64,000 nt of DNA, from contig OU452209.1 of the NCBI GenBank assembly GCA_911728435.2, positions 9,344,869-9,408,868 on the forward strand. Direction: 5' to 3'. Under the pieces are notes generated by a model. That model was not told the DNA's origin. It saw only the letters and a program-made list of their open reading frames with translations, and ran no database searches. How positions within the stretch are numbered: the stretch's first letter is position 1; each line of letters begins with the position of its first letter. The position numbers were made by a program, and so were the translations under genes. This document shows, in pieces, positions 12,446 to 59,977 of this stretch. The DNA is from Apoderus coryli. Lineage: Eukaryota; Arthropoda; Insecta; Coleoptera; Attelabidae.

Positions 12446-12456
12446 TAGGTACACCT

Positions 12457-21079: not shown

Positions 21080-21337
21080 AAAGGTAGATAGGTACGTATA
21101 TATATATATATATACGTGCACATCTATCTTAGTGGGCTCCATACGTGGATAAGGCGCCCTGGCCTCCACCAGAACCACGTTATTTACGCGTGTATACATT
21201 GCATATTTGAATTCCCCGGAAAAAAATAAACAAAGGTAACTTGAGAGGGGAAGAGATTTCGTAAAAAAAATATATACGAAATAAGTATAGACTCAAGATA
21301 GAAACCGGGCTCCGCATATGACATGACAAACTCTCCT
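21080..21337 (+). repeat. Dispersed repeat copy B, left piece
   Basis: Matches the reverse complement of about 5233-5480 (for example ATCTATCTTAGTGGGCTCCA and CACCAGAACCACGTTATTTA). It ends with AACTCTCCT (21329-21337), the left target duplication of the 16.9-kb transposon. Confidence 0.85.
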
Positions 21338-21664
21338 ACCAGTGTGAAAACAGCAGTTAAAATTCTAGCAGTTAATTCCGAACATTGCCGAATGGAGTAT
21401 ACCGGGGTGATTGATGATTTACATCAAATTGATGCAATGCAAATGCAAACTACATGTAGTATCATTAATATAAGTTAATTTACTTATATGGTAATAATTA
21501 TTTGTCAATAAATAAATATTTCGACAGACATATTTGAGGTTAGAATATCAATTAATTCAAATGTTGTGTTCAGAGTGGTTATATACTACTAATATCAAGA
21601 AATTCATATATAAATAACATATATATTTCAGTGATATAATTATCAGAGCCGTATTATTAATTTT
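21338..21664. repeat. Left unique TIR of the foldback MULE
   Basis: About 327 bp complementary to 37938-38265 with few differences, e.g. GTGGTTATATACTACT versus a 3-base-shorter form on the right. It runs into a degenerate first satellite unit (CAGAGCCGTATTATTAATTT). Confidence 0.9.
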
Positions 21665-24600
21665 TAAGCCCCCAACAACATTATAGCTGCTGACCTTATA
21701 GCTCAAAACTCGCAAGGCGTGCCACTTTGAAATTTATAGCATAGATAGTCCTCTACATGTCCTTTGAACTCATATATGTTAGAATGACTTACACCCCGTC
21801 AGAGCCGTACTATATGATTTTTTTATTCCGGGATAATATTTTAACTGCTGACCCCATATCTCAAAACTAGCAAGGCATGCCACCTTGGAATTTAAAGCAT
21901 AGAGAGTCCTCAACATACCCTTTGAACTCATAAATGTCAGAATGACTTACACCCCGTCAGAGCCGGACTATCTGATTTTTTTATTCCGCGACAGGTTTTA
22001 ACTGCTGAACTCATAGCTCAAAACTGGCAAGGTGTGCCACTTTGAAATTTATAGCATAGATAGTCCTCAAAATGTCCTTTGAACTCATATATGTGAGAAT
22101 GACTTACACCCCGTCAGAGCCGTACTATATGATTTTTTTATTCCGGGATAATATTTTAACTGCTGACCCCATATCTCAAAACTAGCAAGGCATGCCACCT
22201 TGGAATTTAAAGCATAGAGAGTCCTCAACATACCCTTTGAACTCATAAATGTCAGAATGACTTACACCCCGTCAGAGCCGGACTATCTGATTTTTTTATT
22301 CCGCGACAGGTTTTAACTGCTGAACTCATAGCTCAAAACTGGCAAGGTGTGCCACTTTGAAATTTATAGCATAGATAGTCCTCAAAATGTCCTTTGAACT
22401 CATATATGTGAGAATGACTTACACCCCGTCAGAGCCGGACTATCTGATTTTTTTATTCCGCGACAGGTTTTAACTGCTGAACTCATAGCTCAAAACTGGC
22501 AAGGTGTGCTACTTTGAAATTTATAGCATAGATAGTCCTCAAAATGTCCTTTGAACTTATATATGTGAGAATGACTTACACCCCGTCAGAGCCGTACTAT
22601 ATGATTTTTTTATTCCGGGATAATATTTTAACTGCTGACCCCATATCTCAAAACTGGCAAGGCGTGCCTCCTTGGAATTTATAGCATAGAGAGTCCTCAA
22701 CATACCCTTTAAACTCATAAATGTCAGAATGACTTACACCCCGTCAGAGCCGGACTATCTGATTTTTTTATTCCGCGACAGGTTTTAACTGCTGAAGTTA
22801 TAGCTCAAAACTGGCAAGGCGTGCCACTTTGAAATTTATAGCATAGATAGTCCTTAAAATGTCCTTTGAACTCATATATGTGAGAATGACTTACACCCCG
22901 TCAGAGCCGTACTATATGATTTTTATATTCCGGGGTAATGTTTTAACTGCTGACCTCATATCTCAAAACTGGCAAGGCGTGCCACCTTGGAATTTATAGC
23001 ATAGATAGTCCTCAACATACCCTTTGAACTCATATATGTGAGAATGACTTACACCCCGTCAGAGCCGGACTATCTGATTTTATATTCCGCGACAGGTTTT
23101 AACTGCTGAAGTTATAGCTCAAAACTGGCAAGGCGTGCCACTTTGAAATTCATAGCATAGATAGTCCTCAAAATGTCCTTTGAACTCATATATGTGAGAA
23201 TGACTTACACCCCGTCAGAGCCGTACTATATGATTTTTTTATTCCGGGATAATATTTTAACTGCTGACCCCATATCTCAAAACTAGCAAGGCATGCCACC
23301 TTGGAATTTAAAGCATAGAGAGTCCTCAACATACCCTTTGAACTCATAAATGTCAGAATGACTTACACCCCGTCAGAGCCGGACTATCTGATTTTTTTAT
23401 TCCGCGACAGGTTTTAACTGCTGAACTCATAGCTCAAAACTGGCAAGGTGTGCCACTTTGAAATTTATAGCATAGATAGTCCTCAAAATGTCCTTTGAAC
23501 TCATATATGTGAGAATGACTTACACCCCGTCAGAGCCGGACTATCTGATTTTTTTATTCCGCGACAGGTTTTAACTGCTGAACTCATAGCTCAAAACTGG
23601 CAAGGTGTGCCACTTTGAAATTTATAGCATAGATAGTCCTCAAAATGTCCTTTGAACTCATATATGTGAGAATGACTTACACCCCGTCAGAGCCGTACTA
23701 TATGATTTTTTTATTCCGGGATAATATTTTAACTGCTGACCCCATATCTCAAAACTGGCAAGGCGTGCCACTTTGGAATTTATAGCATAGAGAGTCCTCA
23801 ACATACCCTTTGAACTCATAAATGTCAGAATGACTTACACCCCGTCAGAGCCGGACTATCTGATTTTTTATTCCGCGACAGGTTTTAACTGCTGAAGTTA
23901 TAGCTCAAAACTGGCAAGGCGTGCCACTTTGAAATTTATAGCGTTGATAGTCCTCAAAATGTCCTTTGAACTCATATATATGAGAATGACTTACACCCCG
24001 TCAGAGCCGTACTATATGATTTTTTTATTCCGGGATAATATTTTAACTGCTGACCCCATATCTCAAAACTGGCAAGGCGTGCCACCTTGGAATTTATAGC
24101 ATAGAGAGTCCTCAACATACCCTTTGAACTCATAAATGTCAGAATGACTTACACCCCGTCAGAGCCGGACTATCTGATTTTTTTATTCCGCGACAGGTTT
24201 TAACTGCTGAACTCATAGCTCAAAACTGGCAAGGTGTGCCACTTTGAAATTTATAGCATAGATAGTCCTCAAAATGTCCTTTGAACTCATATATGTGAGA
24301 ATGACTTACACCCCGTCAGAGCCGGACTATCTGATTTTTTTATTCCGCGACAGGTTTTAACTGCTGAACTCATAGCTCAAAACTGGCAAGGTGTGCCACT
24401 TTGAAATTTATAGCATAGATAGTCCTCAAAATGTCCTTTGAACTCATATATATGAGAATGACTTACACCCCGATAGAGCCGTACTATATGATTTTTTTAT
24501 TCCGGGATAATATTTTAACTGCTGACCCCATATCTCAAAACTAGCAAGGCATGCCACCTTGGAATTTAAAGCATAGAGGGTCCTCAACATACCCTTTGAA

Positions 24601-25945
24601 CTCATAAACGTCAGAATGACTTACACCCCGTCAGAGCCGGACTATCTGATTTTTTTATTCCGCGACAGGTTTTAACTGCTGAACTCATAGCTCAAAACTG
24701 GCAAGGTGTGCCACTTTGAAATTTATAGCGTTGATAGTCCTCAAAATGTCCTTTGAACTCATATATATGAGAATGACTTACACCCCGTCAGAGCCGTACT
24801 ATATGATTTTTTTATTCCGGGATAATATTTTAACTGCTGACCCCATATCTCAAAACTGGCAAGGCGTGCCACCTTGGAATTTATAGCATAGAGAGTCCTC
24901 AACATACCCTTTGAACTCATAAATGTCAGAATGACTTACACCCCGTCAGAGCCGGACTATCTGATTTTTTTATTCCGCGACAGGTTTTAACTGCTGAAGT
25001 TATAGCTCAAAACTGGCAAGGCGTGCCACTTTGAAATTTATAGCATAGATAGTCCTCAAAATGTCCTTTGAACTCATATATGTGAGAATGACTTACACCC
25101 CGTCAGAGCCGTACTATATGATTTTTTTATTCCGGGATAATATTTTAACTGCTGACCCCATATCTCAAAACTGGCAAGGCGTGCCACCTTGGAATTTATA
25201 GCATAGAGAGTCCTCAACATACCCTTTGAACTCATAAATGTCAGAATGACTTACACCCCGTCAGAGCCGGACTATCTGATTTTTTTATTCCGCGACAGGT
25301 TTTAACTGCTGAAGTTATAGCTCAAAACTGGCAAGGCGTGCCACTTTGAAATTTATAGCATGGATAGTCCTCAAAATGTCCTTTGAACTCATATATGTGA
25401 GAATGACTTACACCCCGTCAGAGCCGTACTATATGATTTTTTTATTCCGGGATAATATTTTAACTGCTGACCCCATATCTCAAAACTAGCAAGGCATGCC
25501 ACCTTGGAATTTAAAGCATAGAGAGTCCTCAACATACCCTTTGAACTCATAAATGTCAGAATGACTTACACCCCGTCAGAGCCGGACTATCTGATTTTTT
25601 TATTCCGCGACAGGTTTTAACTGCTGAACTCATAGCTCAAAACTGGCAAGGTGTGCCACTTTGAAATTTATAGCATAGATAGTCCTCAAAATGTCCTTTG
25701 AACTCATATATGTGAGAATGACTTACACCCCGTCAGAGCCGTACTATATGATTTTTTTATTCCGGGATAATATTTTAACTGCTGACCCCATATCTCAAAA
25801 CTAGCAAGGCATGCCACCTTGGAATTTAAAGCATAGAGAGTCCTCAACATACCCTTTGAACTCATAAATGTCAGAATGACTTACACCCCGTCAGAGCCGG
25901 ACTATCTGATTTTTTTATTCCGCGACAGGTTTTAACTGCTGAACT
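21665..25945 (+). repeat. Left satellite array, main block (~27 monomers of ~157 bp)
   Basis: Tandem monomers counted by the anchor TTACACCCCGTC, mean spacing about 157.5 bp. Two monomer types mostly alternate. Type A: GTACTATATGA, CCGGGATAATATT, CATATCTCAAAAC, CAACATACCC. Type B: GACTATCTGA, CCGCGACAGG, TATAGCTCAAAAC, CAAAATGTCC. The A-B dimer (~315 bp) is a higher-order repeat; B-B runs break the alternation, e.g. near 22420 and 24300. No reading frame. Confidence 0.95.
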
Positions 25946-27497
25946 TGTAACCGTATGTAATTAGCGGATGTTATATACATTCAGACGAATACTAATGTTA
26001 TAGTTTCATCCAAATGAACTCCGATATGCTATTAAATTGGTTACGGGTTCGCTTCCATATTTTACGAGCGGTTTAAAATAAAGAAGAACAACCAAAGAAT
26101 ATCAACTTGAATAATAACAGAATCAAATTATTATATGAACAAACAAACAACTAAAATAAGCTTTATTAATCTGTACTGAAGTAATGCAAAATTTACTTAC
26201 CAATATAGTATTTTTCACTATCGGTCACCGACTTTAATTAAAAAGGACTTTTTAATTGGTTGACCTTTTTGAAACTAATTTATTGAAAACTTTATTAGAA
26301 ATAAAACACATATTTTTGTGGGCTAAAAACAACTAATTTAATAATTAAAACTAATTAAAGAAATTTAATAACAAATAAAGAAATAAATATGTGTAAATAA
26401 AAGAAAGAGAAAGAATAAAACAATTAAGCAATAATGAGAATTTAAAAGAAAATCGTAGTTATTACTGTACTACTTAAAAATAGGAAAAATTAATATAATT
26501 CGAATAATTATATTAATTTCTATACGAGACTTTAACATACTAGTGAAAACGGAACTTAATTCATTTACTACAGAAATAACTTTAAACTTTGTATAACAAA
26601 AAAAACTGATTAAACAAAAAGGCCTTCAATTAAAAGTATATCAAAACTTACGGAACTTTATACAAATCACAATTTCCGAATAAAAAGAAATGAACTTAGT
26701 CTTTAAACAAAAACTAGAAAATAATTCTTAACTGATAATTTACTAAGTTCAAAAAAGAAATTAAAATATTTAATTTAACATTTATAATTAGAGAAAACAC
26801 TTCTTTATTCAACAAAGACCAAGACCAATCTGAATATTTAAAAACTTATTCTTTTCTAGCATGTCTCATCAAAGTTAAAAAGCAGGTACCTAGACGGAAA
26901 ATAACCGACCAGCAAAAAGAAGGACATTTATGACATAGTTACCCTTATACATTTACAGGGTGAGAACAAACAAGATACATTTTTATTCGTATGTCGACTT
27001 TAATAAATTTGCTTGATTGCGTCTGGATAAAAACCCATAGTTTTTTATTCGCCCGTTAAGTATATTATTTTGATATGGGAAACCGTGACGCTTTTCAATT
27101 AGCTGGAGTATATAATCAAAAATGTTCGACATTTAATTTGCATGAAGATCTATCGAGTAATTATGAGTGAACACGCTGTAACCCAACATCTGGTTCTCTT
27201 CTCTATCTTTGGCCTACCCATAAAACAAAATTGTATATTCTCGATAACGAACTAAAAGGTTGTTCTCCCAGATACGTCACCATTCTTTCAGGCAAAGATA
27301 ATACTTGCATTATCTGCATATGTTGAAAAAAACCCATATCAATAAACGACAAAATAAACAGAAAGTATCCCTTACATTTTTATGACCGAGAGAATATTTA
27401 TACCCATTCTACCCAAAAACTAATATTAACCATAAAACCTAGACATAACCACAGGGCCGGACAACAGGAAATTCCATTGCTCATTCGTTTTATTACA
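25946..27497. mobile_element. Solo LTR (~1.55 kb) inserted in the satellite array
   Basis: Begins TGTAACCG and ends TTATTACA, with 4-bp duplication AACT on both sides (25942-25945, 27498-27501), splitting one satellite monomer cleanly between GCTGAACT and AACTCATAGC. No coding capacity, no internal region. Best read as a solo LTR left by recombination; family unknown. Confidence 0.7.
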
Positions 27498-28345
27498 AAC
27501 TCATAGCTCAAAACTGGCAAGGTGTGCCACTTTAAAATTTATAGCGTTGATAGTCCTCAAAATGTCCTTTGAACTCATATATGTGAGAATGACTTACACC
27601 CCGTCAGAGCCGTACTATATGATTTTTTTATTCCGGGATAATATTTTAACTGCTGACCCCATATCTCAAAACTGGCAAGGCGTGCCACCTTGGAATTTAT
27701 AGCATAGAGAGTCCTCAACATACCCTTTGAACTCATAAATGTCAGAATGACTTACACCCCGTCAGAGCCGCACTATCTGATTTTTTTATTCCGCGACAGG
27801 TTTTAACTGCTGAAGTTATAGCTCAAAACTGGCAAGGCGTGCCACTTTGAAATTTATAGCATAGATAGTCCTCAAAATGTCCTTTGAACTCATATATGTG
27901 AGAATGACTTACACCCCGTCATTGCCGTACTATATGATTTTTTTATTCCGGGATAATATTTTAACTGCTGACCCCATATCTCAAAACTAGCAAGGCATCC
28001 CACCTTGGAATTTAAAGCATAGAGAGTCCTCAACATACCCTTTGAACTCATAGCTCAAAACTGGCAAGGTGTACCACTTTGAAATTTATAGCATAGATAG
28101 TCCTCAAAATGTCCTTTGAACTCATATATGTGAGAATGACTTACACCCCGTCAGAGCCGGACTATCTGATTTTTTTATTCCGCGACAGGTTTTAACTGCT
28201 GAACTCATAGCTCAAAACTGGCAAGACGTGCCACTTTGAAATTTATAGCATATATAGTCCTCAAAATGTCCTTTGAACCCATATATGTCAGAATGACTTA
28301 CACCCCGTCAGAGCCGTACTATTTATTTTCTTCATTAAGCGACAA
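27498..28345 (+). repeat. Left satellite array, inner block (~5 monomers)
   Basis: Continuation of the array after the solo LTR. Contains a recombinant short unit at about 28040 where an A-type CCCTTTGAACTCAT runs straight into B-type AGCTCAAAACTGG. The last unit decays at 28320-28345 into the core. Confidence 0.9.
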
Positions 28346-29956
28346 TGGTTTAACTATAAATATCTACGTCATAAGCAAAATAATAAATAATGAATGTTTG
28401 AATTAAAAATAAAGTAGATATAATTTTAAATTAGATTATTAAGTTAACTTGTTTTTATCATGCTTTTTTTTAAGGAAAGCTCTACTTCGTCAATTGAGTA
28501 AACCCAAATATGGTCGTTTGCAGTATAAAAATGATGTTGACTTTATTTGAGGATGAATGACATGTTCTCAGAAATTTTCAAAAGTTTGGTCGCACTCTAT
28601 TAAACGTCTGTACTGTATGGTTCCAACTGTAGCTTTTAGCACGAGATATCAAATGACAACAAGATGTAAGGGACGACATCTAGTGTGAGCAGGCAATATG
28701 CCCGGTAAAACAAAATTTACAAGCGATGGCCGGTCAAGAAGTAAGAACTCCATTAAATCCTATTGCCAACACTAAATACGCCTGAATTCCCTAGTGGGAG
28801 GCTTTATTTACGAAATGTTTGTTACACAATCTAACAAGACTTTAAGTAAGTTTGAAATGTGTTTCACACTATGGCGCTTTCACTTTGAGCATATTATTAC
28901 ATTATGTAACAAGCATTCGTAAATAAAGTCTTTCGTCAGGGATTTCGGGCGCATCTAGTGTTGGAAATAGGATTTATTGGAGGTGTTTACTTTTTGTCCG
29001 TCCAACGTTTGTAAACTTTTTTCACCAAGCACATTGCCATCTCACACTAGTTGTCGCCACATACATTTTGTTGTCATTTACTATATTTATTTTTTCACCA
29101 TGCAAAATAGTTTGCTAGAAGGAACGCCAAATGAAAGCAAAAGATTTTGAAGGCCAATAATTATGTGTTTAATAGTAATTATTATTTAATCGAATGTATT
29201 TTTATCTGGTTTACGCAACCGTCCAGCAAGAACCAACGAGGAGGTGTAGAGCGCTCTTGCCTGAAGGGGTAGATATTAAGACATTTTTCGGTAATAAGAT
29301 AATAATTTTAATTAAAAATCTTTAAAAAAATAGTACAACTAGAACATACCTTGGCTAACTAAGCGTTACTTGAGTGTTACTACTTATACCGAAAAGTGAC
29401 CTATTTAAAAGGAATAGGAAGGATTCTTTGGAATGGAATTTGGTTTAGAACCGGTTAGTAAGAAAACAAAAATATTATTTTAAATATAAAAATTAAAAAT
29501 AATAAGAATAAAAATTATAAAACGTAACGTAATAAAAAAATCGCATAACGTTTCTTCATGGACGTTCGACCTGTCAAATAAACTAAACTGATGTCACATC
29601 GATCAATCACATCATCGAAAACTAACAAAACGTATATTCTAAAAACAACATAATAAGTACAAATAATATAACAAACAAAATAAAATCCATGTCTCTATGA
29701 GTCAACAAAAATAAACTTAAAAACAATCGGTTAATCGATGATCCAAACAGCTGTACTATCGAAGGTCAAAAACAAAACCAAATTAAAAATATATTCTAAA
29801 AATTTATAACAATAAATACGTGTTTCATGTCTTTGGCAAAAAATGTAATTTCACTGGTCATTTTTAGTTAATACTAGCGTTTCGAGAATTATTCACTCAT
29901 TATTTATTTAATTGAAAATAGCTTTATTGGTGGACAGAAAGAACACAAAATTGTTG
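28346..29956. other. Non-coding core flank downstream of the transposon genes, with a MITE-like insert
   Basis: No gene recognised. 28650-29082 is a ~430-bp inverted-repeat piece: AAATGACAACAAGATGTA at its left is matched by the complement of TACATTTTGTTGTCATTT at its right, and the inner arms share CTAGTGTGAG and AATCCTATT. Target duplication not resolved. Confidence 0.55.
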
Positions 29957-30856
29957 TTAGTATTTTCGGCACAAAGAACACATGTTGCATTCAATAAAAT
30001 TTGAATTATCATTCAGGGATTTATTGCATAAAGAATGAATATTTCTATGGCAAAATTGACATTCTAAGGAAGTTGATTTATCAACAACATTACGTCCACA
30101 TAATAAACATTTGTCGCCCATGTCCGACGATCTCCCTAAGATAATCCGTTTTATGGTATCTCTATAAGAATCAATACCACACGATTCATCAAGAGGCTTA
30201 CCTTCTAAAATGTTATTAAAAAAATAAATGATATATGGACCGCAATTATATTGATCTGTTTGAATAAGATGATTGAGGGAAAGAATTGAAAAATCGGTAT
30301 AATCGATCGGTTTGTCCAAAATTGCCTGATATTGATTCCAAAAATGTTTGAATTTTTTGTAATATATGTCCGCCATTTTACGAGTTGAACCCATGGGATC
30401 TAAATATATAAAAGTTTTTAAACGAAAATCTATTAATATTAGACAGAAATGATTGCCACCGACGACTATAGGCATTGCAAGAGGCTTATCAAAAAATTTC
30501 ACTTTTTTTAAAAAATCAGTTGAAAACGAACTAAAGTTTTTAAATATTTCGGTACCGATTATGTCCTCAACAATAGTGTATTTCTGATATTTATCCAAAG
30601 CTATCATTGCTAATGTAACAGTAGTACCAGTTAGCCACGATTTGCCAGTTAAGGAATTAAAATCTGAAAATAAAAGTTCCTTTATTGTGATATCAGTGTC
30701 ATCAAAAGTGGCAACAACATATTCGCGATCTACTTTTTGATAAAAATTAATATTATTTACTAAACCATTGGGAAGTAAAATTATCTCATTTAGGGTTGTC
30801 CATTTTCTCGCAGCAAATAGGGGAATTTCATGGGATGGTAGTAATAAAGCTGGCAT
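29957..30856 (-). CDS. Ulp1-type (C48) cysteine protease with C-terminal PHD-like zinc finger
   Basis: 299 residues. The protease fold is supported by SWLTGTTVTLAMIAL (~74-88), H136 in GGNHFCLILID, D153 in IYLDPMGS, Q199/Q202 and C205 in QTDQYNCGPYIIYF: the His-Asp-Gln-Cys arrangement of Ulp1/SENP desumoylating proteases. Residues 250-296 form a C4HC3 finger (C250, C253, C266, C269, H274, C277, C290, C293). It is in the same frame as the transposase ORF, 24 nt downstream of its TGA and with no stop between, so it may be translated by readthrough, reinitiation or as part of an originally continuous polyprotein. Ulp1 domains recur in several eukaryotic DNA transposon groups; substrate unknown. 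Confidence 0.85.
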   Translation of the reverse strand: MPALLLPSHEIPLFAARKWTTLNEIILLPNGLVNNINFYQKVDREYVVATFDDTDITIKELLFSDFNSLTGKSWLTGTTVTLAMIALDKYQKYTIVEDIIGTEIFKNFSSFSTDFLKKVKFFDKPLAMPIVVGGNHFCLILIDFRLKTFIYLDPMGSTRKMADIYYKKFKHFWNQYQAILDKPIDYTDFSILSLNHLIQTDQYNCGPYIIYFFNNILEGKPLDESCGIDSYRDTIKRIILGRSSDMGDKCLLCGRNVVDKSTSLECQFCHRNIHSLCNKSLNDNSNFIECNMCSLCRKY

Positions 30857-30880
30857 GTAATAAAAATAATAAAAAAAATT

Positions 30881-33853
30881 TCATCGGGGAAACATTATAT
30901 TCCAAAATTTAGTGTCCCTACGAATTCTTTCGATTTTTAGAACCACCGTAGTGTAGATAACAAAATCACACCAAGGTCGGTTGGTTATTTCTAAAAGTCC
31001 TTGAATTTGACAATAGTACTCATGCGTAGTTTTCAAGTTGCCAGAAGAATCCAAGTAAGCAAGGATATTTATATCAATTTTGGAGTTTCGAATGCTATAA
31101 GGGCACTTTACCTCAATCAATCCATCATCATCAATAAAACCGTCGGGAGATCCTGCGATATAATTATGTTGTTTATGAATAACAAGTCCAGCTTTTTTGA
31201 AATGACATTTGGTTTGAGAAACATATAATTTGATGGCATTATTTTCATTAGTAACTCCATAATTTACTGAAGGAATGTTACATAAATTGCGATTCTGCAA
31301 TATTTGTTTGGCTAAATTGATCTTGCGCTTCTCACTAGAAGCTGTAAAAACTTTGCCAAAATTTGAAGCAGTTAGGCGAACTTGTCGTTCTCTAACCCAG
31401 ATAGTAGAGCTTCTCTGTCGTACCGTCTCTTCTTGAATCAAATTCATCGCTCGAGGGGACAGTGTCAAGGTTTGCAAGTGTTGCAAACACTTTTCGCGAA
31501 TAGTTGTTTCAGCCTGACAGTGTATATTGATGATATCGACAGTTGGGTTGCTTAAGCAAAGACGACAAACAAATGCTCCAGAATAAGACTTTTCTAGCGT
31601 AGAAGAGTCACATTGCTGATGAATCCATCCATTACACGTATCGCATTGGACCCAGTCGGCAGTTGCATCTAGTCTTCCGCGTAAACAATATAAGCATTTG
31701 TCAAAAACTGTGTCATTTTGACCAACGTCTTGAAATGATATAAGATAATTGCCAGAAAAATGTGTGGTAATTGATGTTTTTGGTCTTTTGCACCAACTCT
31801 CTTGAGATGTGTATTCATCTGAACTCAAATCTTTACTGAAAAGCCTTTTTCTCGCAAGTCCTTTTTTCGGTATGTTTAATTGAATTTCTTTGTAAACAGA
31901 GAGTACATTTATTCTACTTTTTCTAATAAATCGTGAAGCCTTTAGGTTTTTTTGACCCTCTAACAAAATATTTTTTAACTGTCCAAAATAATTTTCCACA
32001 ACAGAGTTACTTAATCTATCTATTTTGTATTCTTTTCTAATTAAAATCCCTGTCCACAATGGACAAAATGGCATATATTTAATTAAAACTAAATTTAAGA
32101 ATTCTGGATTATAAAATACATTTTTTTCTAATTTTCGTTCACTAGACACTAGTACATGTTTATCAAACAACATTTTAAAATATTTATAAAAAGGACTGCG
32201 CTTATATAGGGCAGTCTCGCTTTCGTCGATAGGGGCAACAGAAATATCACAACTATCTGAATTATAAGTACTGTTGACATTTTCAATATTATTATGCATA
32301 GCAAATAAACGTGTTTTAGCAAGAACAACTTGGTTGCTTACATCCACAGATAATAAAAGTGTTGTTAAATCAGTAAACCAGTTAGATATGACAGTAATAT
32401 CCTTTTGAAGAATACAAATAGCCAACAAATTTTTTAAAATTCCTTCAAGCTCTTTTTCATCCTTAAAATGCAGCGCAACATCTTTGGACACCATTTTCAT
32501 AAAGTGGGCGCAACACATATGTATTGTAATTATATTAGAATCCAAATGTTTATTATTAAATGCAACTTCGAAAGTTAAATCTAAATATTCATAAAGCAAT
32601 AAACGATTACATGCTTTGGTGATTGCGTGGATATTTGCAAATGAGAAATCTGTAACAACAGCACCAAATGCTGGCCATTTATTATGCTCTTCGCAGAAGG
32701 TTCTAAATTCATTAAAAATTTTGAAAATTGTTTTTGAATTATGGTTCGATGACAACATTTCAAAAATAGGGACTATCCTCTTGTTCTGAATATGATTAAT
32801 AACTCCAGAATATAGATAAACTCGATTATCCATTGAATTTACTTTTCTTGCAATACTGCCAGTTGCATCAAAATGAATAATTGGAGGAACGTCCATAAGA
32901 GTTTGTTGATTTTTTAAAATGTGTAATTGTTCCATACTATATGTTTTGACGCAAAATGGAATACATACTTCTTGCAAGTACTCTGGATGATCGCGTTGCA
33001 TTTTAATTAAGTCTAATATATCGTCCTTATCTCTATCTAATTGTGCTAGCGCATCTGATCTAATTTTGCGAACAGTTGAATCAGATTTAATTTCTCCAAG
33101 ATTTTGAGTTTTTAATATGAATTGGGAGTTACTATTTATAATATCATTGGCTTTTATAACAGATGGTTTTTTACTTAAACAATCTTGCATTTTTAAAACT
33201 CGTTTAATACCCTTTAAGTATGATGTCACAAATTGATGATGCGAAAAGTTCAATCCTGAACTATATACCATAACAACTAAATCTGGATTAATAATAATTT
33301 TAAATTTTTTGCATTTATATGCATTATGTTTGCAGACAGCAAAAATAGTAATATTTTGTTTCGAGTAATTTGTATATTTAAATATTATGTTGCAAGTATT
33401 ATTGGCCGATTGAGAAATTTTTTGTTTTAAATATGAAGGCGCATAATAAGCATTTAATTTAGAATTTTCTGATACCAATTGCCATGCCCTTTCCGAAATA
33501 TTAAATGTTCCTTCGAAATGATTACAGTCTTTGTAAGTACAAGTCGGTAGATTATCGAGATTTTGAGATCCGCGGGGTAAAAGCTCATCATTATCACATT
33601 TAGCATTACTAAATAATTCGTAAGGCATCGGTTTTTTTTCAGGAGTCGGTATAATTGGTTCTTCATAGTTTTCACTTTCATGATTAACACACGTTGGAAC
33701 AATAATGGAAGATGGTTCTGAGCTTAAACCATAATTTTCTACAAGAGAACTGTCGCTGCATCTATGATTTGCAATAGGTGAAATGGGTTGCCAATCTTCG
33801 TGATTTATTGTTATATCCTCTACATTTGGAGTTGAGCAGAATATAATTGGCAA
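30881..33853 (-). CDS. MULE-type DDE transposase fused to PHD finger and YqaJ-type exonuclease
   Basis: 990 residues. Candidate catalytic residues: D329 (IIHFDATGS), D402 (AVVTDFSFANIH), the CxxH insert C447/H450 (IHMCCAHFMKM) and E620 (LSNSVVENYFGQLK), the D-D-CxxH-E order of MULE transposases. Residues 720-766 form a PHD finger (C720, C723, C737, C740, H745, C748, C763, C766). Residues ~820-975 match the YqaJ/lambda-exonuclease PD-(D/E)XK fold: RLTASNFGKV, NYGVTNENNAIKLY, SPDGFI (D904), GLIEVKCPYS (E914, K916) and YYCQIQGLLE (Q949). Expected role: cut and join the element ends, with the PHD possibly reading histones and the nuclease processing DNA ends. The first Met (33853) is arbitrary: the frame is open ~28 codons further up and joins the upstream ORF if one base of an A11 run (33950-33960) is removed. 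Confidence 0.85.
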   Translation of the reverse strand: MPIIFCSTPNVEDITINHEDWQPISPIANHRCSDSSLVENYGLSSEPSSIIVPTCVNHESENYEEPIIPTPEKKPMPYELFSNAKCDNDELLPRGSQNLDNLPTCTYKDCNHFEGTFNISERAWQLVSENSKLNAYYAPSYLKQKISQSANNTCNIIFKYTNYSKQNITIFAVCKHNAYKCKKFKIIINPDLVVMVYSSGLNFSHHQFVTSYLKGIKRVLKMQDCLSKKPSVIKANDIINSNSQFILKTQNLGEIKSDSTVRKIRSDALAQLDRDKDDILDLIKMQRDHPEYLQEVCIPFCVKTYSMEQLHILKNQQTLMDVPPIIHFDATGSIARKVNSMDNRVYLYSGVINHIQNKRIVPIFEMLSSNHNSKTIFKIFNEFRTFCEEHNKWPAFGAVVTDFSFANIHAITKACNRLLLYEYLDLTFEVAFNNKHLDSNIITIHMCCAHFMKMVSKDVALHFKDEKELEGILKNLLAICILQKDITVISNWFTDLTTLLLSVDVSNQVVLAKTRLFAMHNNIENVNSTYNSDSCDISVAPIDESETALYKRSPFYKYFKMLFDKHVLVSSERKLEKNVFYNPEFLNLVLIKYMPFCPLWTGILIRKEYKIDRLSNSVVENYFGQLKNILLEGQKNLKASRFIRKSRINVLSVYKEIQLNIPKKGLARKRLFSKDLSSDEYTSQESWCKRPKTSITTHFSGNYLISFQDVGQNDTVFDKCLYCLRGRLDATADWVQCDTCNGWIHQQCDSSTLEKSYSGAFVCRLCLSNPTVDIINIHCQAETTIREKCLQHLQTLTLSPRAMNLIQEETVRQRSSTIWVRERQVRLTASNFGKVFTASSEKRKINLAKQILQNRNLCNIPSVNYGVTNENNAIKLYVSQTKCHFKKAGLVIHKQHNYIAGSPDGFIDDDGLIEVKCPYSIRNSKIDINILAYLDSSGNLKTTHEYYCQIQGLLEITNRPWCDFVIYTTVVLKIERIRRDTKFWNIMFPR

Positions 33854-33935
33854 AGAATCGTTTCTATTAAAATATTGTTTACATATTTTATGAATTAACT
33901 TTCTATTTATAACAGAGTTTTTTTTACTAAGTATT

Positions 33936-34301
33936 TTACATAAGTTTCCAAAAAAAAAAATTAATGTCTTTCCTATATGCTCCGACTTTCAGAAAATCTT
34001 CTGCCGAAAATTTCAAATTGGCCAAATAGTTAAAAGTTTTACTTTCTAAAGTTTGTTTTTCACAGTTTTCAATATTATTTGCAAGTACCTGCTTAAATTT
34101 ATCATTGTTTCTCTTAATATACAAAGAAATTTGACTTGGAAATACTTTTTTCTTAGTAGTACTTAAATGATTCGCTATTTCGTGCAATATAGGATCGTTA
34201 TTTTTTAATAAAGACAACCTATCAATCGTGATTTCCGGACATACTTTTAATATTACATTTATAATTTTGTCTAAATAGCTTTGTGTAGTAGTTTCAACCA
34301 T
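33936..34301 (-). CDS. N-terminal segment of the foldback MULE transposase
   Basis: 121 residues, no recognised domain, mostly helical and Lys/Asn-rich (KVCPEITIDRLSLL, PSQISLYIKRNNDKF). It ends right after a T11 homopolymer on the coding strand; with ten T the frame would run on through KILSKKNSVINRK into the 990-residue ORF. I therefore read it as the true N terminus of the transposase, separated by a one-base change that is either a mutation or a homopolymer sequencing error. Confidence 0.65.
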   Translation of the reverse strand: MVETTTQSYLDKIINVILKVCPEITIDRLSLLKNNDPILHEIANHLSTTKKKVFPSQISLYIKRNNDKFKQVLANNIENCEKQTLESKTFNYLANLKFSAEDFLKVGAYRKDINFFFWKLM

Positions 34302-35261
34302 TGTTTACTATTTTATGATAACCAAATTAGCTATTATGTCTTGTTTTGAATAACACTAAAAATTAATTTTTTTCTTACGTACCGCTAATAGGCATAGGTA
34401 CCTACCAATAATAATTTAAGTGATTTATCAGTGTAAATATATATTTTCGCGGGCTTTGTAAACTATTATTCGCTATACCATAGTGAATAATACGCTAGGT
34501 ATACTAAAAATGCCAGCTTTAATTAAATGCAAACGCAATAAATATTCGAAAATAAATCAAAAATATCTTACCTTTACAAAAAACAAAAAAACAATAAAAT
34601 ACCTGCTCTGATCACTTTGATGCATATTATGCATTATTTGTTTACCTTATGCCGCGGGCCGCATTTTACAATGTACCTCCAGCATTAGAATAAAAAGTTG
34701 ACGAAAAATAAAAAATACGCGCCAAAACAGACACGCTCAAAAAGATCGAGATAGATTAGGTATGGTATCTAATATGAGGGTGATATTATTTTACAGGGTT
34801 TTAAATAAAACCTATTTTTAAATATATTTATTCGTATTATTGTGGACATATTAGCTCATATTTATCGTAAGTATTATTTTTTCCTATATGTATACCTATA
34901 TAATTGAAAAATAATTTTGTGGCGTATATTATTATATTTATCACCTCTCTGAAAATGACTATAAAATTGGGATTTTTTTCAGAAGTCAACTAAATTGAAT
35001 CAATGTGACAATATCAAAGTTTTAACAAAACTTTGGACAAAATCACCTCCCAATTGCTTGCAGTATAATTTCGTTCTACAAGTAACTTTGGCAAAAGGAA
35101 CTCGCAATAGGATGAGGTGATGGTAATCATCTGATATTTTCTGATATTTCAAATGAGAGCATAATTGCTACTATACTTTATTGTTATAGTCACAGCTAAC
35201 ATACACATAGCTGTGTTATAGTCGTCAAAATCCAATCTAAATCATAATCGCATGTCCCGGT
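34302..35261. other. 5' flank of the transposon genes (probable promoter region)
   Basis: AT-rich, no ORF. Lies between the first ORF and the right satellite array, so the promoter is expected here. I could not pick a supported TATA box or initiator. Confidence 0.35.
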
Positions 35262-37937
35262 ATAAAAAAATCATATAGTACGGCTCTGACGGGGTGTAAG
35301 TCATTCTGACATATATGAGTTCAAAGGGTATGTTGAGGACTATCTATGCTATAAATTCCAAGGTGGCACGCCTTGCCAGTTTTGAGATATGAGGTCAGCA
35401 GTTAAAACATTACCCTGGAATATAAAAATCATATAGTACGGCTCTGACGGGGTGTAAGTCATTCTCACATATATGAGTTCAAAGGACATTTTGAGGACTA
35501 TATATGCTATAAATTTCAAAGTGGCACGCCTTGCCAGTTTTGAGCTATGAGTTCAGCAGTTAAAACCTGTCGCGGAATAAAAAAATCAGATAGTCCGGCT
35601 CTGACGGGGTGTAAGTCATTCTGACATATATGAGTTCAAAGGGTATGTTGAGGACTATATATGCTATAAATTCCAAAGTGGCACGCCTTGCCAGTTTTGA
35701 GATATGGGGTCAGCAGTTAAAATATTATCCCGGAATAAAAAAATCATATAGTACGGCTCTGACGGGGTGTAAGTCATTCTGACATATATGAGTTCAAAGG
35801 ACATTTTGAGGACTATCTATGCTATAAATTTCAAAGTGGCACGCCTTGCCAGTTTTGAGCTATAACTTCAGCAGTTAAAACCTGTCGCGGAATAAAAAAT
35901 CAGATAGTCCGGCTCTGACGGGGTGTAAGTCATTCTCACATATATGAGTTCAAAGGGTATGTTGAGGACTATCTATGCTATAAATTCCAAGGTGGCACGC
36001 CTTGCCAGTTTTGAGATATGAGGTCAGCAGTTAAAACATTACCCCGGAATATAAAAATCATATAGTACGGCTCTGACGGGGTGTAAGTCATTCTCACATA
36101 TATGAGTTCAAAGGACATTTTGAGGACTATCTATGCTATAAATTTCAAAGTGGCACGCCTTGCCAGTTTTGAGCTATAACTTCAGCAGTTAAAACCTGTC
36201 GCGGAATAAAAAAATCAGATAGTCCGGCTCTGACGGGGTGTAAGTCATTCTGACATTTATGAGTTCAAAGGGTATGTTGAGGACTCTCTATGCTTTAAAT
36301 TCCAAGGTGGCATGCCTTGCTAGTTTTGAGATATGGGGTCAGCAGTTAAAATATTATCCCGGAATAAAAAAATCATATAGTACGGCTCTGACGGGGTGTA
36401 AGTCATTCTCACATATATGAGTTCAAAGGACATTTTGAGGACTATCTATGCTGTAAATTTCAAAGTGGCACACCTTGCCAGTTTTGAGCTATGAGTTCAG
36501 CAGTTAAAACCTGTCGCGGAATAAAAAAATCAGATAGTCCGGCTCTGACGGGGTGTAAGTCATTCTGACATTTATGAGTGCAAAGGGTATGTTGAGGACT
36601 CTCTATGCTTTAAATTCCAAGGTGGCATGCCTTGCTAGTTTTGAGATATGGGGTCAGCAGTTAAAATATTATCCCGGAATAAAAAAATCATATAGTACGG
36701 CTCTGACGGGGTGTAAGTCATTCTCACATATATGAGTTCAAAGGACATTTTGAGGACTATCTATGCTATAAATTCCAAGGTGGCACGCCTTGCCAGTTTT
36801 GAGATATGGGGTCAGCAGTTAAAATATTATCCCGGAATAAAAAAATCATATAGTACGGCTCTGACGGGGTGTAAGTCATTCTCACATATATGAGTTCATA
36901 GGACATTTTGAGGACTATCTATGCTATAAATTTCAAAGTGGCACGCCTTGCCAGTTTTGAGCTATAACTTCAGCAGTTAAAACCTGTCGCGGAATAAAAA
37001 ATCAGATAGTCCGGCTCTGACGGGGTGTAAGTCATTCTCACATATATGAGTTCAAAGGGTATGTTGAGGACTCTCTATGCTTTAAATTCCAAGGTGGCAT
37101 GCCTTGCTAGTTTTGAGATATGGGGTCAGCAGTTAAAATATTATCCCGGAATAAAAAAATCATATAGTACGGCTCTGACGGGGTGTAAGTCATTCTGACA
37201 TATATGAGTTCAAAGGACATTTTGAGGACTATCTATGCTATAAATTTCAAAGTGGCACGCCTTGCCAGTTTTGAGCTATGAGTTCAGCAGTTAAAACCTG
37301 TCGCGGAATAAAAAGTCAGATAGTCCGGCTCTGACGGGGTGTAAGTCATTCTAACATTTATGAGTTCAAAGGGTATGTTGAGGACTCTCTATGCTATAAA
37401 TTCCAAGGTGGCACGCCTTGCCAGTTTTGAGATATGGGGTCAGCAGTTAAAATATTATCCCGGAATAAAAAAATCATATAGTACGGCTCTGACGGGGTGT
37501 AAGTCATTCTGACATATATGAGTTCAAAGGACATTTTGAGGACTATCTATGCTATAAATTTCAAAGTGGCACGCCTTGCCAGTTTTGAGCTATGAGTTCA
37601 GCAGTTAAAACCTGTCGCGGAACAAAAAAATCAGATAGTCCGGCTCTGACGGGGTGTAAGTCATTCTGACATATATGAGTTCACAGGGTATGTTGAGGAC
37701 TCTCTATGCTATAAATTCCAAGGTGGCACGCCTTGCCAGTTTTGAGATATGGGGTCAGCAGTTAAAATATTATCCCGGAATAAAAAAATCATATAGTACG
37801 GCTCTGACGGGGTGTAAGTCATTCTAACATATATGAGTTCAAAGGACATGTAGAGGACTATCTATGCTATAAATTTCAAAGTGGCACGCCTTGCGAGTTT
37901 TGAGCTATAAGGTCAGCAGCTATAATGTTGTTGGGGG
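35262..37937 (-). repeat. Right satellite array (~17 monomers, inverted)
   Basis: Same ~157-bp monomers as the left array in opposite orientation (anchor GACGGGGTGTAAGTCATT occurs about 17 times from 35287 to 37806). A and B types alternate here too. It is about half the length of the left array. Confidence 0.95.
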
Positions 37938-38265
37938 CTTAAAAATTAATAATACGGCTCTGATAATTATATCACTGAAATATATATGTTATTTATATAT
38001 GAATTTCTTGATATTAGTAGTATACCACTCTGAACACAACATTTGAATTAATTGATATTCTAACCTCAAATATGTCTGTCGAAATATTTATTTATTGACA
38101 AATAATTATTACCATATAAGTAAATTAACTTATTTTAATGATACTACATGTAGTTTGCATTTGCATTGCATCAATTTGATGTAAATCATCAATCACCCCG
38201 GTATACTCCATTCGGCAATGTTCGGAATTAACTGCTAGAATTTTAATTGCTGTTTTCACACTGGT
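37938..38265. repeat. Right unique TIR of the foldback MULE
   Basis: Complement of 21338-21664, ending TTTTCACACTGGT directly before the target duplication AACTCTCCT (38266-38274). Confidence 0.9.
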
Positions 38266-39330
38266 AACTCTCCTCCGGTGCATATAATTTAATATGTTAT
38301 CTCGACCTAATGGTCACCGACGATGTTGCCATATCGAGGCATATTGTATATCTAAACAATATATGTAAATGTATCTTTATGGCCTCTACTTTGACTAGCC
38401 TCCGCTGTGTATATCATTTATATAAACGCAGGCACGTTTTAATCGCCTCCGTCTTTTTATAACTAAATTCCACTTCGTTATTGAACTTGTTTTGTTGAGG
38501 AGTTGTATATCAATTACTTACATTCATCTTATTGGGCTCCATTTTTTATAATGAACTTCGCGGTCGTTTTCTGACCTAAATTCCTCTTGATTGGTTTTCT
38601 GGTTTTGCAAACGGGTTGTATATAAATAATGTTATGTGCATATAACTGATCCGCCTCTATTTTACATACAAAGAAAGTATTGTCTCCTTCGTTACTGGTA
38701 GACAGAAAATGATTAAAACCAAGCAAATTGAGAAAATTTATATTTGGAATTTCAACTTACAACTTACTCAATTAGTACAAGTATGAAACATTGAAATAAC
38801 ACGGTAACTAGTGATATTCTTTTGCTGAATATTTTGTTCTTATAAGGTAGGTACTATATTATAAGGAATCCTTATTTATTCCTTCACCAGAGGCAACCAA
38901 CATCAGAAGATCAGCGGAAACAGTGTTCATTTCTTTCGATCGAATTGTAAAAATTCAAATGTTTGCCTCTAGACATTTTTCGACCTTCATGTATTCTTAC
39001 CACATATCTACGTTGTGTTTACTTTTGGTAATTTTTTATTTTATTTATGCCTTCTGGTTTTAAAGCCACATTTATGGTTAATATTAGTACATCTAACAAA
39101 ATTGCTCCGAGGCTAGGCTTATGAGAGTCTTTATTAATACAAATTAATTTAAGTTAAAATTTGAACTTATTTATGAAGTTTTTATCTAGTTAGGTATATT
39201 GATTAAAAAAAAAAACAGTATTTTTGTAATGAACCAAAACACAAAGAAAGATAAATAAATAAGAACATTGTATGCAAGAACAGAACGAAATGAATGGATT
39301 AAAAATGTGCGAAAGAAACTATATTCGTTC
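38266..39330 (+). repeat. Dispersed repeat copy B, right piece
   Basis: Matches the reverse complement of about 4070-5232. Starts with the target duplication and continues CCGGTGCATATAATTTAATATGTTATCTCGACC as in copy A with small changes. Homology fades near 39330. Confidence 0.85.
38529..38723 (-). other. Small open frame conserved between both dispersed repeat copies
   Basis: About 64 codons ending in TAA, also open at about 4778-4969 on the plus strand in copy A. Motifs: NEGDNTFFVCKIEADQLY and KPIKRNLGQKTTAKFI. Of six differences over the shared codons, five are synonymous and one changes Thr/Ile. There is no ATG in either copy, so if coding it is an internal exon or fragment. No family recognised. 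Confidence 0.35.
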
Positions 39331-40100: not shown

Positions 40101-40127
40101 GTTTTGCATATATATATATATATATAT

Positions 40128-40448
40128 AAAGAAAAATGAAATAAACTAACTTGTACGAATCAAAAAAATCTCGTGACACAAGCTGGATTTGAACCAACAT
40201 CTCCCAATTGCCGGTCAGGTGTTTTAACCAATTAAACTATCGTGGCACATGAATGAAACTTCTTTAATTCGTACATGCCTTGCTTCCTATGTGCTGTGCT
40301 ACGCCTCGACCTTTTAATTCAAAGGCAACATAGACTACACACTGCCATAATGCAATGTTATTTCTCTTTTGCTCATCGCAAATAAATATAAATAAACAAA
40401 CAAAGATATTCAACTAAGTTGACAGAGTATAGTATATCACCGATATAC
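40128..40448 (-). repeat. tRNA-derived SINE-like unit 1
   Basis: Minus strand contains a tRNA-like core: TGCCACGATAGTTTAATTGG (acceptor, A box), CCTGACCGGCAATTGGG (anticodon-type arm) and TTGGTTCAAATCCAGC (B box), then CTTGTGTCACGAG. There is no clean 7-bp acceptor and the core continues into an unrelated ~200-bp tail, so this is a SINE rather than a tRNA gene. Confidence 0.65.
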
Positions 40449-40745
40449 AAAGAAAAATGAAATAAACTAACTTGTACGAATCAAAAAAATCTCGTGACAC
40501 AAGCTGGATTTGAACCAACATCTCCCAATTGCCGGTCAGGTGTTTTAACCAATTAAACTATCGTGGCACATGAATGAAACTTCTTTAATTCGTACATGCC
40601 TTGCTTCCTATGTGCTGTGCTACGCCTCGACCTTTTAATTCAAAGGCAACATAGACTACACACTGCCATAATGCAATGTTATTTCTCTTTTGCTCATCGC
40701 AAATAAATATAAATAAACAAACAAAGATATTCAACTAAGTTGACA
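40449..40745 (-). repeat. tRNA-derived SINE-like unit 2, direct tandem copy
   Basis: Repeats unit 1 with a 321-bp period, apparently identical over the tRNA-like core and tail. Ends within TCAACTAAGTTGACAG. Confidence 0.7.
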
Positions 40746-40902
40746 GTTGACAACACCTGACCGGCAATTGGGAGATGTTGGTTCAAATCCAGCTTGTGTC
40801 ACGAGATTTTTTTGATTCGTACAAGTTAGTTTATTTCATTTTTCTTTGTATATCGGTGATATACTATACTCTGTCAACTTAGTTGAATATCTTTGTTTGT
40901 TT
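40746..40902 (+). repeat. tRNA-derived SINE-like unit 3, inverted partial copy
   Basis: Opposite orientation; begins at ACACCTGACCGGCAATTGGG (lacking the A-box half) and runs through the B box to TTCATTTTTCTTTG, then the complement of the unit-1/2 junction (GTATATCGGTGATATACTAT) to a (TA)n at 40903-40923. Confidence 0.65.
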
Positions 40903-45600: not shown

Positions 45601-47440
45601 TGCACTGTTCATAGATTTGAAATAAATTAAAAACATCTAAGTTCGCGTAATTATGTTGCATTTTCTTTAACTTAGTTAAGTGATAATAATATGTTAAACA
45701 AACTGCAGTAATATTAACAATGATATAGTTGTCAATATTTTACGTTTCTGTATACCTACTACTTATGTGACGTTGATTATGGCATTTGTCTACTAAAAGG
45801 TTGCTGCAAATTGTATCAAGTATGACAAAAATGTACAAAATTCAAAATATTGAAGAAATGGAATATTTTAGGTATAGGGAAGTAATAATATATCACTAAA
45901 AAGGTTATTTTTTTGTCTATCGCACGGCATAGTCGAAGATATACCATTCCATTTAAAAAATTGACTTTTCCTAGTAAACACGTGGTTCAAGTTTAAATTC
46001 AATGAAATCTTGTTCTGCAACTGTATCATTTGTATACTCAGTATTCCCTCTAATCACAGTATATATAAACATACAATAAGAAAGCTAGCTAACCAGAAGT
46101 TTGACTTCGTGTAAATAGCATTGATTTGTATGGGATTTTTTGAAACTCGCGCAGATTTTGTGCGCATCATAGTATTGTTCACAATATCAAACAAGCGGGC
46201 AATAAATTCTGTACTAACAATTAAAATAGTACACAATTTCACATAAGCGGAATATTTTCGCGCAACTTTCGCAATAAAAAAAATATGTTTAATTTAAAAA
46301 AAAACTTTATTATAATAATATTTATTTCGTCTCATTCGTACTTATGTACATACACGTCGGTAACCCAAAGTATAAAACATACGTAGTTTATTTTAATATA
46401 TAATAAAAACATAATAATAGCTACATAAATATCTATAAATGTGTCTACAAAAAAAAATTTAAACAAAACAGAATGTTATCATTGGTCAGCATTTAGAAAT
46501 TTTTGCAAATGTGTTGTCAATTAGTAGGTTTTTTAATTAGCTCTCCATATCATATTATATATGAGGTCTGTTTCATGAATTTTTTGAATTCCACCGTGTA
46601 GAAGGGGTAAAAAACTCAAAAAAAAAAAATATTTCCAAAACAATATAAATATTGCCTAGTTATTTATAGCTTTGATAGAATATAACCTATGAATTGTATC
46701 AGAAAAACGTGCTTACCCAATGCGTTCGTAAATAGTGTCTAGTCACATAATCATGATTACTACGAGAATGATGTTTTGTTTTAATCATATCTCAGAATCA
46801 TGATTACTGCGAGAATCATGTTAAGTTTTAAAAGTATCACAGAGCTTTAAAGGCCTCCAGACAACTACCTCTAAGCGTCTTTATAATGCAATATCAGCTA
46901 CGTGGGAAGGGTTCAAATGATGATCTTACAACTTTTATTAGGGAGTTAAAGCTGTACATGAGACGAGACGTATCTATGCTGACGTAACGGAAATTATTTA
47001 GGATAAGTCAATTGAAAAATCTAGGACCGAAAATGAGTTAAAGTTTGATTAGCAACTTAACGCATTTTTCTTAGGTTATGTTTATATTTGTTTAACTCGT
47101 ACGGATACCTCCGGTCATACAATCGAGGATTTCCGGTAGAATGCGTTCTCGTCTGAATGACACGCAAGAGACCGTATGGATACGGGATACGTATCCGCAA
47201 ACGAGATGAAAATTTCATTTGCGCATGCCTAGCTGTCAATAGATACGTATACGTTCTTGTCTCATGAACAACTTTAACTCCTTATTATCTGCATTTACAT
47301 GCATTCATTTCTTAATTCTTACAGCTAACAGGAAATCGACTTATGTCAACAATCAACAATGTCACTTATAAATTAACGAAAACACTAAGCGCGAAATTTG
47401 AATTTCAACAGGCGTAACAAAATAGTTTACGCTACACAAA

Positions 47441-47540
47441 TGATTTTAAGAAAATTGCCTTAACTCTATATTTTTTGGGGCCAACTTTGTATAAGCATCT
47501 ACAGAAAACTTTTTTTTTTGCCCTCCTAGTCAACATTATG
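47441..47540 (+). pseudogene. Inverted scrap of the P-type transposase
   Basis: Plus strand reads KKIALTLYFLGPTLYKHLQKTFFFAL, the counterpart of the minus-strand segment at 47790-47870. It forms an inverted pair with a ~250-bp spacer that contains the DEMS region. Confidence 0.65.
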
Positions 47541-47559
47541 GAAAATAACTTCGAAGTGA

Positions 47560-59967: not shown

Positions 59968-59977
59968 CCCCCACTTT
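59968..59977 (-). other. Polypurine tract of the copia element
   Basis: AAAGTGGGGG directly upstream of the LTR start (TGTTAG) on the minus strand, overlapping the polyprotein stop codon. It would prime plus-strand synthesis. Confidence 0.75.

Follow-up and report, generated by a model that had tools for sequence, protein, structure and literature searches.

Foldback elements are suspected of seeding satellite DNA. Tetris, a foldback of Drosophila virilis, has been proposed as such a source; its TIR is described as composite, with outer flanking, tandem-repeat and inner domains, a variable count of ~220-bp repeats and a stretch found both in the outer domain and in the repeated unit, and its authors found no autonomous copy (PMC4079207). 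Composite TIRs with a variable number of internal repeats, in that case of ~14 bp, are also described for Tm1, a Mutator/Foldback element of root-knot nematodes which makes mostly 9-bp duplications and of which a subset codes for transposase; PHD and Ulp1 are unmentioned in the main text of that report (PMC3169594). In Galileo, a foldback of the P superfamily whose transposase has a THAP domain, the tandem repeats of the TIR are said to hold additional transposase-binding sites (PMC4079207). Probably closest to the locus presented here are the Rehavkus elements, represented by Rehavkus-1_TC of the beetle Tribolium castaneum (Repbase Reports 2006, through PMC10218199 and PMC6446971). These accounts describe 9-bp target site duplications (8-11 bp in Mutator-like elements, MULEs; PMC6446971), one ORF with a PHD finger, and inverted termini with a tandem array of the 164-bp satellite TCsat23, whose arrays in Tribolium are mostly of five and eight monomers.

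In the window, the whole 64,000-nucleotide stretch of Apoderus coryli DNA that was analysed, positions 21338-38265 hold a whole transposon copy of 16,928 bp, as read from its ends. The left end at 21338 is ACCAGTGTGAAAACAGC, and the complement of ACCAGTGTGAAAACAGC closes the right end at 38265. The 9-bp target site duplication AACTCTCCT flanks the copy on the forward strand at 21329..21337 and, perfectly matched, at 38266..38274. The left outer terminus (21338..21680, + strand, 343 bp) begins ACCAGTGTGAA, and the right outer terminus (37926..38265, - strand) is an inverted copy of it at 98.5%. The boundaries, termini and perfect duplication claimed in an earlier note on this DNA, made from sequence alone, all proved exact, and its satellite-built inverted repeats are indeed 157/315-bp tandem arrays at both ends. 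The left arm (21680..25945, + strand) consists of a 157-bp unit in a 315-bp dimer, with 13.6 dimer copies or ~27 units, and its remaining inner part lies at 27498..28355 (+ strand). The ~1.5 kb between them (25946..27497, unstranded) has no counterpart within the six other copies whose interiors were compared and is likely a later nested insertion. The right arm (35253..37926, - strand) is inverted relative to the left and holds 8.5 copies of 315 bp (35253-37919), or ~17 units. Inverted pairs of up to 1250 nt at 97% place the arms of this copy far beyond chance. Between the arms lies a unique, unstranded interior of ~6.9 kb (28355..35252), which is 99.4-99.6% identical to the gene-bearing copies C15 and C12.

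The 343-bp terminus has at least 40 full-length matches in the genome at 99-100% identity. One of these is the left end of the window copy itself, and the search for further copies which the earlier note had called for thus returned at least 39 others; the count is a lower bound, 40 of 213 candidates having been scored. Besides family A, that of the window copy, at least three related families were found in this one genome, and the satellites are of 157 bp (A), 156 bp (B), 164 bp (C) and 158 bp (D). All four carry satellite arms and perfect target duplications and share ACNNNTGTGAA in their termini, and each includes at least one copy whose gene is open. Family A has arms of up to 7 kb, family C of more than 10 kb. 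A perfect 9-bp duplication was present in every element with both ends read (23/23: A 14, B 7, C 1, D 1), among them 13 other family-A copies with termini identical in kind. Scoring by script covered nine of ten elements; the tenth was read by eye, its duplication intact and two terminal bases altered. Mismatched end pairs, used as a control, agreed in 0/90 cases (9 of the 90 include the end that is altered and unscored by script).

The likeness to Rehavkus as described extends to the beetle host, the 9-bp duplications, a single ORF with a DDE transposase and PHD finger (here a 1447-aa frame) and a tandem satellite of the ~160-bp class in inverted ends (here 156-164-bp units in four families). 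There are differences: the Tribolium arrays are short compared with arms of 7 kb and more than 10 kb, and the genes of families A-C hold a YqaJ domain, whereas YqaJ and Ulp1 are unmentioned in the Rehavkus descriptions cited. Tetris and Tm1 as described share the composite TIR and its variable repeat number; they differ in repeat length, Tetris also in that gene-bearing copies with an open frame occur here. Galileo, alike in the additional sites proposed for its repeats, is set apart by description through its transposase. Taken together, these data show 21338-38265 to be a satellite-armed DNA transposon with a perfect 9-bp duplication and one gene; quite probably it is of the Rehavkus kind and would move by DDE-catalysed cut-and-paste. 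The Rehavkus link is one of described features.

The earlier note had seen in this copy an insect NOF-like MULE. Such an NOF/FB-type element would be a foldback built around a MULE transposase, its additional domains being carried as cargo, and the 9-bp duplication does fall within the MULE range of 8-11 bp. However, Pfam scans of the protein listed no DDE/MULE or Transposase_mut family, and the beetle relatives and 156-164-bp arms favour Rehavkus; we regard the NOF/FB reading as unlikely on these grounds. The homologue searches gave no match named NOF, most matches carrying no name. Slightly less likely again is a Galileo-like foldback of the P or hAT superfamily with a Rehavkus look by convergence. 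In the DDE fold comparison ISCth4 and the P element were tied, with Hermes and retroviral intasomes near 10, and the modelled fold does not tell IS256/Mutator transposases apart from those of P or hAT. P and hAT elements, however, make 8-bp duplications, against 9 bp in 23/23 elements here, and Pfam lists neither a THAP nor a BED domain.

The transposase gene (29957..34301, - strand) is broken in the window copy. Its ORFs at 30881-33853 and 29957-30856 are in the same frame, separated by a single TGA (30881..30883, - strand) between the YqaJ and Ulp1 parts, and a 121-aa N-terminal ORF (33936..34301, - strand) is out of frame with the remainder. The earlier note had taken the two ORFs for two proteins, a transposase-PHD-exonuclease and a Ulp1-PHD protein, which would make the TGA a true gene boundary or a read-through signal. 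Both window ORFs are open apart from this codon, as two working proteins would require. Nevertheless, the frame continues past the TGA site in C11, C12, C15, C19, the family-B and -C genes and the relatives from other beetles, sister copies have a single open frame (1447 aa in C11, 1442 aa in C12), and the window copy has the additional frame change near its N-terminus; we therefore consider two proteins very improbable and a single gene, split by the TGA in the window, the correct description. The N-terminal frame change also occurs in C15 and, to judge from how long their frames are, in C10:29924243 and C23:3174, and because it is repeated in several copies it may be a short intron. Equally improbable is a gene that is separate from the satellite and landed in, or came to be flanked by, inverted arrays by chance, the outcome that the earlier note had named as refuting its view. 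Satellite without the listed terminus does exist, at 3 of the best 150 of 583 satellite matches; the other 147, judged from the satellite and terminus match lists, lie in or beside elements with the listed 343-bp terminus. Paired termini enclose all seven family-B genes of full length, and homology between the A and B satellites is evident, at 72-73% over kilobases, beside 81.5% for coding DNA. Genes and satellites are therefore one element, whose two parts have diverged together from A to B, and the separateness of gene and array is largely refuted by paired termini, joint divergence and satellite placement. When satellite units of different families were compared locally, A-B was clear, while B-C (p 0.01) and C-D (p 0.013) are weak matches given 12 comparisons. 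A circular global comparison (60 shuffles each) placed A-B, A-C, B-C and C-D above all shuffles in shared orientation, and A-D and B-D not above them; this shuffle null is imperfect, as B-C in reverse orientation likewise exceeded it (3 versus a maximum of 0).

The gene encodes, on the - strand, an RNase H-fold DDE core (31811..33118; residues D, D, CxH, E, from fold models and matches), a first PHD finger (31556..31696; Pfam PF00628, 6e-6), a YqaJ/lambda-exonuclease-type nuclease domain (30977..31399; Pfam 3e-13), a Ulp1-type (C48) cysteine protease domain (30131..30823; Pfam Peptidase_C48, 2e-10; H/D/Q/C present) and a second PHD-like finger (29960..30127). The PHD, YqaJ and Ulp1 domains claimed earlier were thus recovered by Pfam; the second finger is weak in Pfam on the window protein and clear with a family profile. 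D, D and E of the DDE core are present in all 23 proteins of the catalytic residue table. The YqaJ domain has the fold and the catalytic D, ExK and Q of YqaJ/lambda-exonuclease nucleases, and the best 50 of 354 matches in a viral structure library are YqaJ-type or other nucleases where named, or uncharacterised. For Ulp1/SENP, counted among those of the 23 proteins that reach each position, H is present in 22/22, D in 18/22 with N in 4/22, and Q and C in 21/21. The order DDE-PHD-YqaJ-Ulp1-PHD is complete in 17 of the 28 proteins mapped, 15 of these 17 having also served to build the domain profiles. Between A and B, dN/dS is 0.10 for DDE, 0.065 for PHD1, 0.14 (0.08-0.24) for YqaJ, 0.17 (0.10-0.26) for Ulp1 and 0.26 (0.08-0.66) for PHD2; purifying selection thus acts on the DDE, YqaJ and Ulp1 modules. 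A transposase is thus fused to a predicted lambda-exonuclease-type nuclease and SUMO-type protease, both selectively maintained, a fusion of which no description was found among the literature matches listed.

Family D has neither YqaJ nor the motif AGCAGYYAAA, but its satellite arms are long and it shows a 9-bp duplication, so both are unnecessary for arms or insertion; the idea that YqaJ is linked to satellite arms is rejected. YqaJ is also absent from the Tribolium relative P0033, which has two Ulp1-like modules and falls just outside the YqaJ clade, and from P0020, inside that clade on a long branch. The tree comprises 29 rows (25 of 39 distinct homologues, 14 being left out, and 4 from this genome), and its root is unsure because the outgroup P0042 sits on a very long branch. 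As it is missing from the Tribolium relative and family D, YqaJ was probably acquired within the lineage.

In families A, B and C, AGCAGYYAAA recurs in the terminus and in the satellite units, at 0.95 (A), 0.73 (B) and 0.99 (C) per unit; AGCAGYYAA stands at positions 15 and 30 of the left outer terminus. The terminus and unit of family D have no long motif in common. Chance values for AGCAGYYAAA are too kind, the motif having been chosen after the sequences were inspected. We propose it, from its recurrence, as a candidate transposase-binding site.

The transposase would bind AGCAGYYAAA-type sites, two per terminus and about one per satellite unit, so that each arm would offer many binding sites. 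The DDE core would make 9-bp staggered cuts, and the broken window copy would be moved in trans by intact copies. Ulp1 may strip SUMO, perhaps off host silencing proteins, and the PHD fingers may read chromatin. The YqaJ nuclease, which the lineage probably acquired later, may chew back DNA ends, with the donor gap then repaired by copying. A more speculative idea, and one that we hold only tentatively, is that the satellite is a self-grown working part, in which every unit, ~160 bp long and thus nucleosome-sized, would repeat a motif of the terminus bound by the transposase, the arms acting as chromatin-scale platforms for a PHD transposase, while a captured phage-type exonuclease would force copying repair, multiplying the element and re-sizing its arms. 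The copy at 21338-38265 likely illustrates a mobile element that carries and spreads satellite DNA, and four armed families, open genes and the clear co-divergence of gene and satellite between A and B make this link testable.

Unequal exchange or repair inside the arms may change their length. Among ten copies with termini 98.5-100% identical, arm length ranges from 0.8 to 7.2 kb, and three copies that share one deletion junction (30415/34704) differ in arm length. Homogenisation of arms within a copy was rejected as a general rule, median identity being 94.15% within versus 95.0% between copies (10 within-copy and 180 between-copy pairs, the C11 right arm taken without its outermost bases). 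Near-identical arms within one copy were seen in C19 only, at 99.9%.

The transposon occupies 21338-38265 and is flanked by a perfect 9-bp duplication, AACTCTCCT, as the earlier note had described. Inside outer termini of approximately 343 bp each lie tandem arrays of a 157-bp unit, inverted relative to one another. These units are often paired as a 315-bp dimer and fall into two main types, representatives of which differ at 22 positions. Sequence at 25946-27497 breaks up the left arm; the interiors of six further copies contain no match to it. A single gene, encoding domains in the order DDE-PHD-YqaJ-Ulp1-PHD, lies in the interior on the minus strand. It had previously been read as two proteins, a transposase-PHD-exonuclease and a Ulp1-PHD protein. 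However, the window ORFs of 990 aa and 299 aa lie in the same frame and are parted by just one TGA. A single open frame is found in copies C11 (1447 aa) and C12 (1442 aa), and the frames in C15 and C19 also continue through the TGA site. The fused gene is also found in relatives from Ceutorhynchus, Phaedon and other assemblies. Since sister copies are open and relatives fused, the window most likely holds a defective copy from a family that was active recently. Its N-terminal 121-aa ORF is severed by a frame change (33936-33988) that C15 shares, as do C10:29924243 and C23:3174 to judge from the lengths of their frames; this is either an old defect common to several copies or a short intron.

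The genome (428 Mb, 129 contigs) was surveyed for the 343-bp terminus. With 40 of 213 candidates scored, at least 40 full-length matches of 99-100% identity were found, together with two partial ones. Leaving aside the left end of the window element, at least 39 full-length matches remain; the check for further copies suggested in the earlier note was thus successful. Ten copies of this family (family A) were examined whole, including that in the window. These ranged from 2.4 to 29.4 kb, counting nested insertions, and all ten were flanked by perfect 9-bp duplications, each of different sequence. The ends alone were examined for four further A copies and six copies of a related family, B. Nine of these ten were scored by script; in the tenth the duplication is intact and two terminal bases alongside are changed. 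Overall, perfect duplications were found in 23/23 elements, including the elements of families B, C and D examined end to end, that of D being chosen among small offsets by the criterion of matching termini. The copy at C19:10260211-10279991 contains a second, partial gene and an additional satellite block, and its outer arms, unlike those of the remaining copies, are 99.9% identical across 2.7 kb. At C12:3118759-3119325 and C12:3262025-3262584 a family A terminus abuts a diverged (88-89%) partial terminus with outer ends facing, resembling two elements joined tip to tip.

At least four families are present in the genome, with B, C and D sharing approximately 80%, 47% and 39% protein identity with A, and all four carry satellite arms. 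The unit is 157 bp in A, 156 bp in B (48.6 copies in the left arm), 164 bp in C (64.6 and 49.1 copies) and 158 bp in D (37.2 and 31.2 copies); the B and C elements examined end to end are 28.9 kb and 28.3 kb long. At two more loci with related genes, C-type (164-bp) and D-type (158-bp) repeats adjoin the gene. Between A and B the satellites align at 72-73%, beside 81.5% for coding DNA, and on this comparison of sequences the repeat has evolved together with the gene. Paired termini enclose 7/7 full-length B genes, the satellite having been examined in one such element. A termini likewise enclose 7/7 full-length A genes: both ends were read for five, one lies at a contig edge and one has the left terminus alone among the matches listed. 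Among the best 150 of 583 satellite matches, 147 lie in or adjoin elements with termini among the matches listed, the exceptions being C16:14125384, C12:3318554 and C22:7209911. Unit length is held at 156-164 bp across A-D despite sequence divergence, and is near nucleosome size; the unit of Tribolium TCsat23 is likewise 164 bp.

Terminus and satellite also share a motif. In families A, B and C, each terminus contains AGCAGYYAA at two places (positions 15 and 28-30). The number of AGCAGYYAAA per satellite unit is 0.95 in A, 0.73 in B and 0.99 in C. The chance of one AGCAGYYAAA in a shuffled unit is 0.001-0.0035, for a motif picked post hoc. The satellite motif is direct with respect to the terminus in C and inverted to it in A and B; the motif was found in neither the terminus nor the satellite unit of D. 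We propose AGCAGYYAAA as a candidate transposase-binding site. A similar sharing of sequence between terminus and repeat unit is described for Tetris and Galileo (PMC4079207).

Among known kinds, Rehavkus is the best match, as compared by its descriptions. It is reported from arthropods and annelids, makes 9-bp duplications, and has a single ORF, a PHD finger and a minisatellite close to its end (PMC6446971), and the 9.5-kb Rehavkus-1_TC has inverted termini containing a 164-bp satellite (PMC10218199). Rehavkus serves as the outgroup in a 2026 survey of arthropod MULEs, whose main text contains none of the words PHD, Ulp1 and YqaJ (PMC13359780). No description of a transposase-YqaJ-Ulp1 fusion was found among the literature matches listed, which do not include Repbase Reports, the source of Rehavkus-1_TC. 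In a tree of the core, the root of which is unsure, family D and a Tribolium relative (P0033) fall outside a 26-row clade (support 83/87) that takes in every row where YqaJ was detected. The clade also holds four fragments (P0019, P0032, P0034, P0035) and a long-branched row (P0020) without detected YqaJ. From tree placement and domain distribution, a single gain of YqaJ is probable, perhaps followed by one loss. Both P0033 and D carry a pair of Ulp1-like modules, of which the first is weak, with a PHD after each. Two further proteins, P0023 and P0024 (one from the oyster Saccostrea), carry a YqaJ domain like that of this transposase; neither gave a match to the DDE core profile, and they are possible cousins of the captured nuclease.

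The DDE core would most likely act by cut-and-paste at ends recognised via the terminal motif, with cuts staggered by 9 bp, and defective copies, including that in the window, would be mobilised in trans. Domain identity suggests that YqaJ could serve in end resection, Ulp1 in de-SUMOylation and PHD in chromatin reading. Three deletion derivatives share a common junction and have arms of unequal length, which argues that arm length changes after, or during, spread.

Elsewhere in the window, BEL/Pao-type retrotransposon genes (DUF1759, a weak aspartyl protease, reverse transcriptase and Peptidase_A17) lie at 55641-59712, and a long ORF of 1326 aa at 59976-63956 (minus strand) encodes a Ty1/copia-type polyprotein. 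Reverse transcriptase and/or GIY-YIG pieces at 6942-8318 (-), 11558-12454 (-) and 12457-13539 (+) are of the sort seen in Penelope-like elements; the latter two are divergent neighbours with GIY-YIG at the end of each. A 321-bp unit at 40122-40746 is present in 1.9 copies at 99%, each with a predicted tRNA-Ala (GGC) gene. Finally, at 47432-47842 (minus strand), a TNP-like RNase H N-terminal domain lies in a fragment that is possibly a P-element-type relic.
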